From: Nesterenkonia sp. LB17
GTDB taxonomy: Bacteria > Actinomycetota > Actinomycetes > Actinomycetales > Micrococcaceae
NCBI RefSeq assembly: GCF_022565915.1
Contig: NZ_JAJOYX010000001.1
Coordinates: 744,001-808,000, forward strand
DNA length: 64,000 nucleotides
Direction of reading: 5' to 3'
Shown piece by piece: positions 42,871 through 54,240 of this stretch (the first letter of the stretch is position 1; every line of letters begins with the position of its first letter). The translations under genes and the position numbers were made by a program. The notes beneath the pieces are model-generated. The model had not been told where the DNA came from and did not search any database. It was given only the letters and a program-made list of their open reading frames with translations.

Positions 42871-43527
42871 TCAGTGCAGCTCGACGCCGGTGGCTTCGCG
42901 CACCTGCTCCTCACTCACCCCCGGTGCGGTCTCCACCAGCTCCAGGCGCGGGGCGGTCTCGGTGCCCACCACGTCGATGACAGCCAGGTCGGTGATGATC
43001 CGGTTCACCACGGACTTGCCGGTCAGCGGCAGGGTGCAGGCAGGCAGGATCTTCGGGGCCCCGTCCTTCGCCACATGGTCCATCAGGCAGATGACCCGCT
43101 CCGCGCCATGGACCAGGTCCATGGCGCCGCCCATGCCCTTGACCATCTTGCCGGGCACCATCCAGTTGGCGAGGTCGCCGTTCTCGGCCACCTGCATGCC
43201 GCCGAGCACGGCGACGTCGATCTTGCCGCCGCGGATCATGCCGAAGCTGGTGGAGGAGTCGAAGAACGCCGCCCCGGGAAGCACGGTGACCGTCTCCTTG
43301 CCGGCGTTGATCAGGTCCGGGTCCACCGCGTCCTCGGTGGGGTAGGGGCCCACGCCGAGGATGCCGTTCTCGGACTGGAGCACTACGGTGCGCTCGGCCG
43401 GGATGTGGTTCGGGATCAGGGTCGGCATCCCGATGCCTAAGTTCACGTAGGCGCCGTCGGGGAGCTCCTCGGCGGCGCGGGCGGCCATCTGGTCGCGGGT
43501 CCAGCCTGCGTTGATCTCGGTGCTCAT
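42871..43527 (-). CDS. scoB: 3-oxoacid CoA-transferase subunit B
   Basis: ScoB and ScoA move CoA from succinyl-CoA to acetoacetate. The 218-residue subunit has the catalytic glutamate at about E53 in [10 protein letters not shown], preceded by [14 protein letters not shown] 43527 is chosen because GGAGTG lies upstream and the protein has the normal length. A longer open frame to 43779 is a chance extension inside scoA in another frame. The gene lies 7 bp after scoA and 65 bp before the thiolase, as in scoAB operons. Confidence 0.95.
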
Positions 43528-43534
43528 GACGTGG

Positions 43535-44317
43535 TCACTCCTTCTCGTCGCTGCGGACGGTGCGCTTCTCGATGGGCTTGTCGATCTCGGCGCCGACCTC
43601 CACGATCCGGTGCACGAAGACCCCGGGCAGGTGGACGGCGTCGGGGTCGATCTCCCCGGGCTCCACGAGCTCCTCCACCTGGGCGATGCAGACCCGGCCC
43701 GCCATCGCGGCGTCGGGGCTGAACTGCCGAGCGGCCTTGTTGAACACCAGGTTGCCGTGTCGGTCGCCGCGCTGGGCATGGACCAGGGAGAAGTCGGCGA
43801 CGATCGACTCCTCCAGGACGAAGTCGAGCGCCCGGCCGTCGTGGACGGTGAAGGGCCTGACCTCCTTGGGCGCAGACTCCTTCGCCACGCCGCCGGAGCC
43901 GTCGTAGGTCATCGGGATGCCGCCCTCGGCGACCTGCGTGCCCACTCCGGAGCGGGTGTAGAACGCCGGGATGCCCGCGCCGCCGGCGCGCATCTTCTCC
44001 GCGAGAGTGCCCTGCGGGACCAGCTCCAGCTCGAGCTCGCCCTCCAGGTATTGGCGAGCGAACTCCTTGTTCTCGCCCACATAGGACGAGGTCATCTTCA
44101 CGATCCGGCGGGCCGCCAACAGGATGCCCAGGCCCCAGCCGTCCACGCCGCAGTTGTTGGACGCGACGGAGAGCCCGGAGGCGCCCTGCTCCAGCAGCGC
44201 CTCGATGAGCTGGATCGGATTGCCGGAGAGGCCGAAGCCTCCCACGGCGAGCGAGGCTCCGTCAGGGATGTCGGCGACGGCCTCGGCGGCGGTCGCTACG
44301 GTCTTGTCGATGGTCAT
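43535..44317 (-). CDS. scoA: 3-oxoacid CoA-transferase subunit A
   Basis: This is the 260-residue partner of ScoB. It contains the N-terminal CoA-binding glycine motif [29 protein letters not shown], and the [16 protein letters not shown] stretch seen in the family. A C-terminal extension follows. ATG 44317 lies behind TGAGGAGGG. A second, truncated copy of the same N-terminal region is found at 48236 on the other strand. The gene is 82 bp from the dehydrogenase, with no strong signal in the gap. Confidence 0.95.
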
Positions 44318-46857: not shown

Positions 46858-46875
46858 TTCGTAGCTGGCTACGAA
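46858..46875. promoter_or_regulatory. Palindrome TTCGTAGC-TG-GCTACGAA, possible operator
   Basis: The arms are perfect over 8 bp. The site overlaps the stop of the PucR-type gene and lies about 118 bp upstream of the permease start. It could be a regulator-binding site for the permease operon or a small terminator hairpin. Confidence 0.5.
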
Positions 46876-48056
46876 TGCGTCCCGTGGGGGAGTGTGCCCC
46901 GATGTGCTGCGAGCACCCAGGAGAGCTCGACGAGCGTGTCGAGGTCTCCCAGATCAGCCCCGACCATCTCCTGGAACCTCTGCAGCCGGTAGCGCAGCGT
47001 GTTGGCGTGCACCGGGATGCTGCGGGCGGCCAGTGGAATGCTCAGCCGGTTGCGCAGGTAGGCGTCCACGGCCTCGAGCACATGCTCGCCGAATGCGCCG
47101 GCCTCGGCCAGGGGCTGCAGGTGGCGCTCCTGCAGCAGTGCGGTGACCTCCGGGCTGGCGTGGACCCCGGCTCGCCAGGAGAGGCGTTCCAGGTCCACCA
47201 CCCCGGTCTGCCCCACGGCCGCGGCTGCGCGCAGCGCCGTGGAGGCGGACTCGAAGGATCGAGGCAGCCCCTCCAGGGTCACCGCCGCGCCGAGCCCGAG
47301 GGTCAGCCGGTCCGGCTCCGCGCTCAGCGGCGGCTCGCCGATGAGGATGCCCACCAGCGTGCTGGCGCGCACGGCCGTGAGCACGCGGATTCCCGCCCGG
47401 TCGGCCCAGTCCTGGAGCCGCCGCTGGTGTTCGAGGTCCTCTTCCGGCTGTGAGTGCGCGGCCAGCGCGCGCAGCGGTGCGGCGGTGGGGATGTCGTAGA
47501 GGGCGGCGCCGCGGGCCAGCTCGGTCGGCTCCATCCAGGTGGCGACGGCGTCACCGATCCAGGCCGCGCGCCGGGTGGAGTCAGCCAGAGCTCGCGAGAC
47601 GTCCTTGTCCCGGTAGACGAGCACCGCGCGGGTGGAGAACGCGTCTCCCAGCTCCCACAGCAGGGTGGAGGAGGCCAGGACCTGATCTGCGGGGATGCCG
47701 TGGTCCGGGGCGTGGTCCAGCAGCCGGTGCAGGATCACCGACATGCAGGTCCGGAAGCCGGCGAGCACGCTCTCCACGGGCACTCCCTGGGCGTGTCGTT
47801 CCGAGGCCAGGGCGTCAGCTTCGGCGACGTCGTCGGAGGAGGGTTCGAAGCCGGCGCGGACCGTGCGGATGCTCAGCGCGATGTTGCGCCGCACCGATGC
47901 CTGCAGGGCGGAGGTGGGGACGTCGTGGTAGCCGGGCACCGTGGCGCGAATGTTGCCGATGGTCTCCTCGAGGATGCTGCCGTCCGCCTCGAGAGCGGCC
48001 AGCAGCTGGTCCCAGGCGGCCTCGGCGCGACCCTCATCCGCTGTCATGGGGCTCAC
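46869..48056 (-). CDS. PucR/CdaR-type transcriptional regulator
   Basis: The 395-residue protein has an N-terminal helical region (RsbRD-like, about 15-160), a central GGDEF-like/CdaR region, and a C-terminal PucR helix-turn-helix. The last reads VDAYLRNRLSIPLAARSIPVHANTLRYRLQ, with key blocks LAARSI and HANTLRYRL, at about residues 330-375. Proteins of this type are activators responding to a metabolite. Its place between a permease operon (same strand) and an AtoE transporter (opposite strand) makes both sets likely targets. ATG 48047 is an alternative start with a leaderless-type TATCGT 7 nt upstream. Confidence 0.85.
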   Translation of the reverse strand: MSPMTADEGRAEAAWDQLLAALEADGSILEETIGNIRATVPGYHDVPTSALQASVRRNIALSIRTVRAGFEPSSDDVAEADALASERHAQGVPVESVLAGFRTCMSVILHRLLDHAPDHGIPADQVLASSTLLWELGDAFSTRAVLVYRDKDVSRALADSTRRAAWIGDAVATWMEPTELARGAALYDIPTAAPLRALAAHSQPEEDLEHQRRLQDWADRAGIRVLTAVRASTLVGILIGEPPLSAEPDRLTLGLGAAVTLEGLPRSFESASTALRAAAAVGQTGVVDLERLSWRAGVHASPEVTALLQERHLQPLAEAGAFGEHVLEAVDAYLRNRLSIPLAARSIPVHANTLRYRLQRFQEMVGADLGDLDTLVELSWVLAAHRGTLPHGTHS

Positions 48057-48235
48057 GATACCGCCGCCCTGCGCCGAGCAGGAGCATGGCGCGGTTCCCG
48101 CGCTGGAGCCTCCCGGCGTTCCGGAGCAGGTCTTCTGCAGACGATTTGCTTAGCGTCGTGATCTGAGTCACATTGGGGGTGACGGGGCCGGATCGCCCCA
48201 CCTTCTGCGCATCTGAACTCAAGGAGCTCACCCTG

Positions 48236-48352
48236 ATGGTTGCCCGATATCCCTCTGCCCCTGAGGCGCTGGATCGTCTGTCCTTCGACGGCATGACCCT
48301 CCTCGTCGGAGGGTTCGGTCTCAGCGGCATCCCCGCTGAGCGTGCCGTATGA
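48236..48352 (+). pseudogene. Truncated scoA N-terminus (38 codons)
   Basis: ATG 48236, behind AAGGAG, opens a 38-residue frame that ends at TGA 48350-48352. It reads YPSAPEALDRLSFDGMTLLV and continues GGFGLSGIPAERAV. This is the start of a 3-oxoacid CoA-transferase A subunit, with the same [11 protein letters not shown] motif as scoA at 43535. The remainder of a 240-residue domain is missing, and the reading frame runs directly into the AtoE start (ATGA). It is either a gene remnant left after a deletion or a short leader now used to couple translation. Confidence 0.78.
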
Positions 48353-49722
48353 CCACTTCGCGGCAGTCTGCCGCAGGCAACAGCGCCGTACTCGGCAGGG
48401 TGATGCGGCCGCTGAACTCCCTGGTGGAGAAGCTGATCCCCTCGGCCCTGGTCTTTGCCATCGTCCTGACCTTCATCGTGGGCATCCTGGCGCTGGTCTT
48501 CACCGACGCCGGCCCTGTGCAGGTCGTCGAAGAATGGGGCATCGGCCTGGCTGGGCTGCTGGAGTTCATCACCCAGATGGCCCTCATCCTGTTCCTCGGC
48601 TATATCCTGGCCAACACGCGACCCGCCCGAAAGCTGCTCCGCCGCCTGGCCACAGTCCCCAGAACAGCAATCCAGGCCTACCTGTTCGTGTTCTTCATCG
48701 CCGCCCTGGCAAGCCTCATCACCTGGGGACTGGGACTGGTGGTCGGCGGTCTGCTGGCACGCGAAGTTGCCCACGTCTTCCGGGAACGCCAGATTCCCGT
48801 GCACTTTCCCATGCTGGTGGCCTCGGGGTTCTCCGGATTCGTGGTCTGGCATATGGGCTACTCCGCCTCCGGGCCGCTGACCGCAGCCACCCCAGATTCC
48901 TTCGTGGCAGACCAGCTGGGCGCTCCGCTGCCCGTGGGGGAGACGATCTTCTCCACCTGGAACATCATCGCCTGCATCGTCACCATCGCAGTGGTCGCCC
49001 TGGCCCTGTATCTGGTGGCGCCCCGGGACAGCAAGTCGGTGGTCCCGCTGGCGGTGGACGCACGCGAGGCCGATGTCGAGATCGACGACGCCGTCGAAAC
49101 CCCCGCTGACCGCGTGGACGCCTCTCGCATTCCCACGCTGCTGATCGGCCTGATGCTGGTGGCCTATCTGATCATCCACTTCAGCGGCGGCGGCACCCTG
49201 ACGCTGGATGTAGTCAACTGGAGCTTCCTGGGGCTGATCATGCTGCTGGTCCGCAATCCCTTCGAACTGATCGCCCTGACCAAGCAGGCCGCCTCGAATG
49301 TGGGCGAGATCCTGCTGCAGTTCCCGCTGTACGCGGGCATCCTGGGCATCATGGCCGGCACCGGGCTGATGACCGTCATCTCAGAGGCCTTCGTGGCGAT
49401 CTCCACTGCGCAGACTTTCGCGCTCTTCGCGTTCCTCTCCGCCGGTCTGGTGAACTTCTTCGTGCCCTCCGGGGGCGGACAGATCGCCGTGCAGGCCCCG
49501 ATCCTGCTCGAGGCCGCAGAGGCGCTCAGCGTGGATCCCGCTATCGCCATCATGGCTGTGGCCTATGGAGACCAGTGGACGAACATGATTCAGCCGTTCT
49601 GGGCGCTGCCGCTGCTGGCGATCGCGGGGCTGAAGATGCGCGACATCCTCAGCTACACCACGATCGTGCTCATCGCCTCCGGCATCGTCTTCGGCGCAAC
49701 CCTGCTCATCGTCTCGATGTGA
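48349..49722 (+). CDS. atoE: Short-chain fatty acid transporter, AtoE family
   Basis: The 457-residue protein has about 10-12 hydrophobic segments and follows the AtoE pattern. This includes VEKLIPSALVFAIVLTFIVG at the N-terminus (two blocks), WGLGLVVGGLLAREVA, FPMLVASGFSGFVVWHMGYS and NFFVPSGGGQIAVQAP near residue 365-380. AtoE members bring in acetoacetate or short-chain fatty acids. The ATG lies in the stop codon of the scoA remnant, whose ribosome site may drive translation. It is divergent from the PucR-type regulator and is the second transporter of the cluster. Confidence 0.9.
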   Translation: MTTSRQSAAGNSAVLGRVMRPLNSLVEKLIPSALVFAIVLTFIVGILALVFTDAGPVQVVEEWGIGLAGLLEFITQMALILFLGYILANTRPARKLLRRLATVPRTAIQAYLFVFFIAALASLITWGLGLVVGGLLAREVAHVFRERQIPVHFPMLVASGFSGFVVWHMGYSASGPLTAATPDSFVADQLGAPLPVGETIFSTWNIIACIVTIAVVALALYLVAPRDSKSVVPLAVDAREADVEIDDAVETPADRVDASRIPTLLIGLMLVAYLIIHFSGGGTLTLDVVNWSFLGLIMLLVRNPFELIALTKQAASNVGEILLQFPLYAGILGIMAGTGLMTVISEAFVAISTAQTFALFAFLSAGLVNFFVPSGGGQIAVQAPILLEAAEALSVDPAIAIMAVAYGDQWTNMIQPFWALPLLAIAGLKMRDILSYTTIVLIASGIVFGATLLIVSM

Positions 49723-52109: not shown

Positions 52110-52166
52110 ATGCGTCAACTACTAGCGGTAGTACCCGTACCCGCCGCCGGGGGACATGTGAAGTGA
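52110..52166 (+). CDS. ilvB leader peptide (attenuation)
   Basis: A short frame encodes MRQLLAVVPVPAAGGHVK, with consecutive Leu-Leu and Val-Val codons followed by Val. The codons are CTA CTA, GTA GTA and GTA, which are rare in this GC-rich DNA, so ribosomes should stall strongly when charged Leu or Val tRNA is scarce. It ends at TGA 52164-52166. An in-frame ATG at 52101 would add three residues. A stem-loop series and a terminator follow before ilvB. This matches the known actinobacterial ilvB leader-peptide attenuators. Confidence 0.78.
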   Translation: MRQLLAVVPVPAAGGHVK

Positions 52167-52290
52167 TTCACACGCCTCAGGTCGGCCGCTCGTCTGCCTC
52201 ACCGAGGCAGCCGAACGGTTGAACTGGAGCTGACGCATCCGCTCACCCCGGCAGAAGGCCCCATAGGCTTCTCAGCCGGGGTTTTCTCTT
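52167..52290 (+). promoter_or_regulatory. ilvB attenuator: alternative hairpins and terminator
   Basis: CTGCCTC-ACC-GAGGCAG forms one hairpin (52194-52210). The segment TGACGCAT (52231-52238) can pair with the leader peptide start ATGCGTCA (52110-52117). The terminator is CCCCGGC/GCCGGGG (52246-52252 with 52275-52281) with an inner AGAAGGC/GGCTTCT stem, then TTTTCTCTT. Ribosome stalling on the leader would decide which forms. Confidence 0.72.
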
Positions 52291-52362: not shown

Positions 52363-54240
52363 ATGAGCAATCTGACAGCCACGAGCCCAGCCATGCTGGC
52401 CTCCAAAGCATCCAGCAGCGCCGCTGGGACTTCCCCGGACCCGCGCATCTACGGTCCCGGCCGCACGGTGGAGCCGGTAGCGGCCACCGGCGCCGAATCG
52501 ATCATTCGCAGCCTCGAGTCACTCGGCGTGACAGACGTCTTCGGCATCCCCGGCGGCACCATCCTGCCCACCTATGACCCGCTGATGGACTCCGAGCAGA
52601 TCAACCACATCCTGGTGCGCCACGAGCAGGGCGGCGGCCACGCCGCCCAGGGCTACGCGATGGTCACCGGTCAGGTGGGCGTCTGCTTCGCCACCTCCGG
52701 CCCCGGCGCGACGAACCTGGTCACCCCGATGGCCGACGCCCACATGGACTCCGTGCCGATGGTCGCGATCACCGGCCAGGTCAACGCCGCGGTCATCGGC
52801 ACCGATGCGTTCCAGGAGGCCGACATCGTCGGCATCGCCACCCCGATCACCAAGCACTCCTTCCTGGTCACCGACGCCGACCAGATCCCGAAGGTCATGG
52901 CAGAGGCCTTCCACCTGGCCTCCACCGGTCGGCCCGGCCCGGTGCTGGTGGACATCACCAAGTCCGCCCAGGTCGCCCAGACCACCTTCGCCTGGCCGCC
53001 GAAGATCGAGCTCAACGGCTACCGTCCGGTCACCCGCGGGCATTCCAAGCAGATCCGCGAGGCCGCGAAGCTGATCCAGGCCGCCTCCCGCCCGGTGTTC
53101 TACATCGGCGGCGGCATGATCAAGGCTGAGGCCTCCGAGGAGTTCTACGCGCTGGCCGAGACCGTCGGCGCACCGGTGGTCAACACGCTCATGGCCCGCG
53201 GCGCCTTCCCGGATTCGCACCAGCAGAACCTGGGAATGCCCGGGATGCACGGCACGGTCTCCGCCGTCGCCGCGCTGCAGCGCTCGGACCTGCTGATCAC
53301 CCTCGGCGCGCGCTTCGATGACCGGGTCACCGGGCAGCTGGAGAGCTTCGCCCCGGACGCGAAGGTCATCCACGCCGACATCGACCCCGCCGAGATCTCG
53401 AAGAACCGCGCGGCCGACGTGCCGATCGTCGGCTCGCTCAAGGAGATCGTGCCCGAGCTGACCTTCGCCTTCGACGCGCTGGTGACCAAGCACGGACGCA
53501 CCGACATCAGCGGCTGGTGGAAGCAGCTCAACCGCTTCCGCGAGACCTACCCGCTGGGCTACACCACCCCGGAGGACGGGAAGATCGCCCCGCAGCAGGT
53601 CATCGAGAAGATCAACCAGGCCGCCGGTCCCGAGGCCGTCTACGTGGCCGGCGTCGGGCAGCACCAGATGTGGTCCTCGCAGTTCGTCAAGTACGAGCGG
53701 CCGCGGCAGTGGCTGAACTCCGGCGGGCTCGGCACCATGGGCTACGCGGTGCCTGCCGCCATGGGCGCCCAGGTGGGCAACCCGGACCGGGTGGTCTGGG
53801 CCATCGACGGCGACGGCTGCTTCCAGATGACCAACCAGGAGCTCGCCACCTGCGCGATCAACAAGATCCCGATCAAGGTCGCGGTGATCAACAACTCCTC
53901 GCTGGGCATGGTGCGGCAGTGGCAGACCCTCTTCTACGAGTCCCGCTACTCCAACACCCACCTCAACACCTCGGTGTCCGACTCCGGCGGGGAGATCGTT
54001 CGGATCCCCGACTTCCTCAAGCTCGCCGAGGCCTACGGCTGCGTGGGGCTGCGCTGTGAGCGTCCCGAGGACATCGACGCCGTGATCGCCGAGGCCATGG
54101 CGATCAACGACCGCCCGGTGGTCGTGGACTTCGTGGTCTCGCGGGACTCGATGGTCTGGCCGATGGTCCCTGCAGGGGTCTCCAACAGCGACATCCAGTT
54201 CGCGCACAACCTGACCCCGCAGTGGGACGAGGAGGACTAA
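52363..54240 (+). CDS. ilvB: Acetolactate synthase large subunit
   Basis: IlvB makes acetolactate or acetohydroxybutyrate, the first shared step of Val/Leu/Ile synthesis. The 625-residue protein has a 45-residue disordered start, then the TPP-activating Glu at about E88 ([14 protein letters not shown]). The FAD-binding region follows, and the TPP motif [15 protein letters not shown] is near residue 480. The ATG 52363 lies behind GAGGAAAAG. Expression is predicted to be controlled by the leader just upstream. ilvN follows after 3 bp, giving the usual subunit pair. Confidence 0.97.

Follow-up and report, generated by a model that had tools for sequence, protein, structure and literature searches.

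We suggest that a 38-codon open reading frame directly upstream of atoE in Nesterenkonia sp. LB17 (genome size 2.8 Mb) is probably the surviving 5' end of an otherwise lost second CoA-transferase A gene (scoA), exapted as a fore-cistron of atoE. This frame, hereafter the stub, lies in the 64,000-nucleotide stretch of DNA that was analyzed (the window; Table 1). In the proposed mechanism, ribosomes would load at an AAGGAG site before the stub, translate it into a peptide of no importance, terminate at the stub TGA within an ATGA tetranucleotide and reinitiate at the atoE ATG that overlaps it; atoE itself would lack a usable ribosome site. Selection would then maintain the start, the ribosome site, the frame, the length and the overlap, and would not maintain the peptide. 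We infer that such reinitiation occurs and that AtoE is made mainly in this way.

Table 1. Positions of the stub, atoE and accompanying features in the window
Feature	Position	Strand	Remarks
scoB, complete, of the genome itself	42871..43527	-	Pfam search
scoA, complete, of the genome itself	43535..44317	-	Type differs from stub; Pfam CoA_trans, E = 7e-67
Divergent PucR/CdaR-type regulator gene (pucR)	46869..48056	-	Pfam HTH_30, E = 1.8e-15
GTGATCTGAGTCAC, CRP/GlxR-like palindrome	48158..48171	+	65 bp 5' of stub
AAGGAG ribosome site of stub	48221..48226	+	9 nt 5' of stub ATG; 8 nt in three sister species
Stub ORF, 38 codons	48236..48352	+	scoA N-terminus, putative coupling leader
Stub start codon, ATG	48236..48238	+	
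Predicted branched RNA fold	48289..48347	+	Two stems (7 and 8 pairs) and an outer helix; window genome only
ATGA, atoE start sharing bases with stub stop	48349..48352	+	Identical in three sister species
atoE, encoding a 457-aa short-chain fatty acid transporter	48349..49722	+	Pfam SCFA_trans, E = 1.5e-118
Stub stop codon, TGA	48350..48352	+	

The stub stops within the start codon of atoE, as the initial annotation had described, and a stop/start overlap of the kind that marks termination-reinitiation pairs (ATGA or TGATG) is thus present here and in three sister species. The AAGGAG site of the stub has a match length reached by 2% of random 16-mers, whereas the longest properly spaced match before atoE in the window is a GAG of 3 nt, as found in about 80% of random 16-mers. 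The earlier claim that the stub has a good ribosome site and atoE has none is borne out by this comparison. In the four genomes that carry a stub, the matches before atoE are 3–4 nt long. The predicted duplex energy before atoE is -5.5 in the window and -8.5 to -10.4 in the three sisters, where atoE is preceded by a G-rich, GGGGCGTG-like stretch. As the duplex energy of this stretch is no worse than that of the stub's own site, atoE of the sisters might start unaided, which counts against the leader reading. We consider the predicted lack of an own ribosome site firm for atoE of the window and weaker for atoE of the sisters. Among atoE loci without a stub, a ribosome site of at least 5 nt precedes the best start in 61 of 76 cases, including all 12 of the nearest relatives (L004–L015), in a comparison that is biased toward finding a site by the choice of the best start at each locus.

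AtoE matches PF02667 over its full length (397 bits versus a cut-off of 27, residues 15–454). Invariant columns make up 50% of the stub and 80% of atoE codons 1–18; this step in conservation falls exactly at 48349 and supports an atoE start there. A start at Met19 (48403) was considered and rejected, because it lacks a properly spaced ribosome site and because codons 1–18 are conserved as coding sequence.

Codons 1–35 of the stub align with complete scoA genes and the last three codons do not; the likeness stops past GIP(AE), three codons 5' of the atoE start. The frame therefore represents the start of an scoA gene without its body, as had been claimed from the window sequence. The closest match is a complete gene of a congener (G013; 66% over codons 1–35, E = 9e-10), in which the A and B subunits share one 485-aa frame; most of the family's remaining scoA genes match at 58–75%. 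Across the family, the stub finds matches at E <= 0.001 in 98 of 245 genomes, mostly inside open frames of scoA length. CoA-transferase A profiles match 24–30 of its residues, out of a whole domain of about 220. The scores stay below the curated cut-offs, both for Pfam CoA_trans (PF01144; E = 6e-4, 19.7 bits versus 23) and for TIGR02429 (pcaI_scoA; E = 0.006, 16.1 bits versus 128.5), as a query of 38 aa is too short to reach them. Judged by these scores and alignments, the resemblance to CoA-transferase A exceeds chance, and the stub is a descendant of the 3-oxoacid CoA-transferase subunit A family rather than a member of it. We rejected an origin of the stub from the complete scoA of the same genome: at E <= 0.001 the stub matches nothing but itself there, and that scoA is of another type. 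In the congener with the closest match, a further scoA-scoB pair, whose genes are separate, lies after the fused ScoA-ScoB frame (L161, 5313–6767; 485 aa).

Three sister species, namely N. aurantiaca (L002), Nesterenkonia sp. E16_10 (L003) and G019, have the same arrangement of a divergent PucR-type regulator gene, an AAGGAG site, a frame of exactly 38 codons, the ATGA and atoE (L002 and L003 are equated with genomes G004 and G023 on the basis of identical locus sequence). The encoded peptides, MAVRYSSATEAMHERLFEGITLVLGASGRTRIPAGRDA in N. aurantiaca, MAVRYSATTETLHEELFEGGALVLAAFGRRDIPAGCAA in E16_10 and MSVRSSAAAETLHHELSEGVARVLGTSARRRIPTGRAA in G019, are not recognized as CoA-transferase in Pfam and NCBIfam searches, and the window copy is therefore the least changed. 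For all six pairs of the four species, dN/dS of the stub is 0.94–1.71, compared to 0.07–0.12 for atoE. In addition, stub dN to the window copy (0.35–0.54) equals or exceeds the dS of atoE (0.26–0.29), and the peptide therefore drifts at about the neutral rate.

The length of the stub behaves differently from its peptide. Its alignment has no gaps in 114 columns, while the spacer toward the regulator gene (199, 221, 294 and 329 bp in the four genomes) is interrupted by 8 gap blocks across 198 columns without gaps (Fisher P = 0.028; Poisson P = 0.01 with all eight events and 0.06 with five counted as independent). It counts against the leader reading that the spacer from which this indel rate was taken may grow through repeats, and that stub carriers number four genomes only. 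The stub ATG is kept in all four species (P = 0.11 if neutral), as is the AAGGAG site at 8–9 nt. Openness of the frame was dropped as evidence, since neutral simulation leaves all four tips free of stops with P = 0.45–0.48; other reading frames of the stub are often open as well. The P values were not multiplied, because all of them rest on one small tree. As far as the sequences tell, the start signals, frame, length and overlap of the stub are kept and its peptide is free to change. As start signals and frame are kept and the peptide is not, this pattern fits a leader that delivers ribosomes to atoE by termination and reinitiation. The initial suggestion that the leader was kept for coupling thereby gains comparative backing from four species that keep start, site, length and overlap around a neutral peptide. 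We also lean, by a small measure, toward the view that the remnant has turned into a "frame-only" gene, in which ribosome site, length, frame and stop would be kept for the sake of atoE, the protein would be neutral and the translation-start region of a pseudogene would be functional.

The same data bear on the rival view that the stub is a dead remnant decaying in the 5' untranslated region, with atoE starting alone or helped by an unstructured region. An unconstrained peptide with dN/dS of about 1, a frame whose openness in four species is not unlikely by chance and the G-rich stretch before atoE in the sisters are all compatible with decay. A decaying remnant does not readily explain why the stub is without indels next to a spacer that varies freely in length, why the ATG, the AAGGAG at 8–9 nt and the overlap are kept in four of four species, or why an AGGAG-type site before atoE is absent from these four and present in relatives without a stub. 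We therefore regard simple decay as improbable.

The stub might, alternatively, be a regulatory leader of the attenuator type, in which its translation would serve as a sensing step that sets atoE expression, for example via an RNA fold. A strong branched fold is indeed predicted in the window, closing 1 nt 5' of the atoE ATG (-35.1 kcal/mol, z = -2.97). Nothing unusual is predicted over the atoE start of the three sisters (z = -0.17, 0.49 and -0.08), and a conserved RNA switch was rejected on the grounds that the fold occurs in the window alone; the lack of a conserved fold also counts against the leader reading. No Rfam family was matched, the stub has no codon bias and drifts neutrally, and it shows neither the conserved peptide nor the conserved alternative RNA folds of a peptide-sensing attenuator, which makes attenuation very unlikely. 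Ribosomes moving through the stub would unfold this structure in the window, a step that does not belong to the conserved elements of the mechanism. Even less credible is a functional small protein, for which an open frame and a good ribosome site could be cited, given dN/dS values of 0.94–1.7 and the retention of almost none of the peptide in the sisters.

Upstream of the stub, the GTGATCTGAGTCAC palindrome is kept in N. aurantiaca, one half of it has drifted in the two other sisters, and matches with one mismatch are about as frequent as predicted by chance. Similar GTGA-N6-TCAC motifs precede atoE in many other relatives. A search for a sigma-70 promoter pattern found none. Further downstream, a perfect TGTGAAGTGATTCACA palindrome (52157–52172) lies between ilvD and an acetolactate synthase gene that starts at 52363.

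As to how the locus arose, the initial annotation had proposed that a second scoA lost its body by deletion. A complete scoA-scoB-atoE locus was found at the stub site in none of 30 Nesterenkonia genomes, and a relative with no CoA-transferase there is what the initial annotation had named as a refutation of its view. We still infer a deletion to be likely; one that ran from about codon 35 of scoA to the atoE start would be the simplest origin. Alternatively, atoE may have been captured by a relocated scoA start. Same-strand scoA-scoB genes 5' of atoE occur in Kocuria only, 2.7–4.5 kb away and with a thiolase gene in between. The ato operon of Escherichia coli is atoDAEB. In atoDAEB and in the Kocuria cluster (scoA-scoB-thiolase ... 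atoE), as at the stub locus, the start of a CoA-transferase A gene heads the cluster and atoE follows downstream; unlike in these clusters, everything from scoA codon 35 to atoE is missing at the stub locus.

In trees of pucR, the window genome, N. aurantiaca (G004), E16_10 (G023), G019 and G020 form a group separate from the remaining Nesterenkonia. G020 is placed with little resolution (as sister of the window genome in the gntP tree, support 0.92; support 0.05 in the pucR protein tree). G020 (L083/L165) shows an unchanged order of regulator gene, zinc-ribbon-like gene and ilvD and has neither stub nor atoE, which, in a member of the same clade, counts against the leader reading. Because the order from regulator to ilvD is retained without them, G020 may have lost both stub and atoE, and probably did so. 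In several other Nesterenkonia (L005, L007, L009 and L013), atoE and pucR share a strand, with atoE first and no stub. Several loci had peculiarities of their own. A contig labeled Vibrio cholerae 35D (L056) carries an atoE that is 69% identical, perhaps through contamination or a mislabeled assembly; atoE of L095 (G018) is in two overlapping pieces in different frames, indicating a frameshift or a sequence error; and pucR of L096/L111 (G001) is broken mid-gene into two frames.

ATGA pairs are translationally coupled in Haloferax volcanii, and so were all but one of the pairs tested in E. coli; the ribosome site of the second gene in coupled pairs ranges from helpful to essential and is not always needed (Huber et al., 2019, PMC6728339). 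The stub-atoE pair, for which coupling is predicted, resembles these pairs in its ATGA, its weak or absent second ribosome site and an upstream frame that would be translated first. It differs from them in that both genes of those pairs work, whereas here a stub of 38 codons, with a product that is not conserved, takes the place of the first. Synthetic bicistronic cassettes of Corynebacterium glutamicum employ the first ~60 nt of host genes as leaders, which serve to load ribosomes and to open structure (PMC10367133). Like these designs, the stub would be a short leader made of the first codons of a gene, and it ends in the start of its target. The engineered leaders end with a second ribosome site, which is strong, and a TAATG junction (PMC10367133), whereas the stub occurs naturally, overlaps its target through ATGA and, in the window, lacks a clear second site. 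A search of 5.39 million open papers turned up coupling and bicistronic designs, but no description of a coupling leader retained from the remnant of a gene.

Coupled overlapping genes and synthetic leader cistrons are well known, and the mechanism suggested here is of a known kind; its origin is unusual and the pattern of selection is informative. The sister species separate the ribosome site, the frame, the length and the overlap, all of which are maintained, from the peptide, which is not. This pattern suggests a search signature, namely short frames that end in the start codon of the next gene, have dN/dS of about 1 and are free of indels. Genome annotation would miss such a stub or label it a pseudogene. 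If our reading is true, the beginning of a dead gene has here become a natural leader, which would reveal one route by which such leaders originate.
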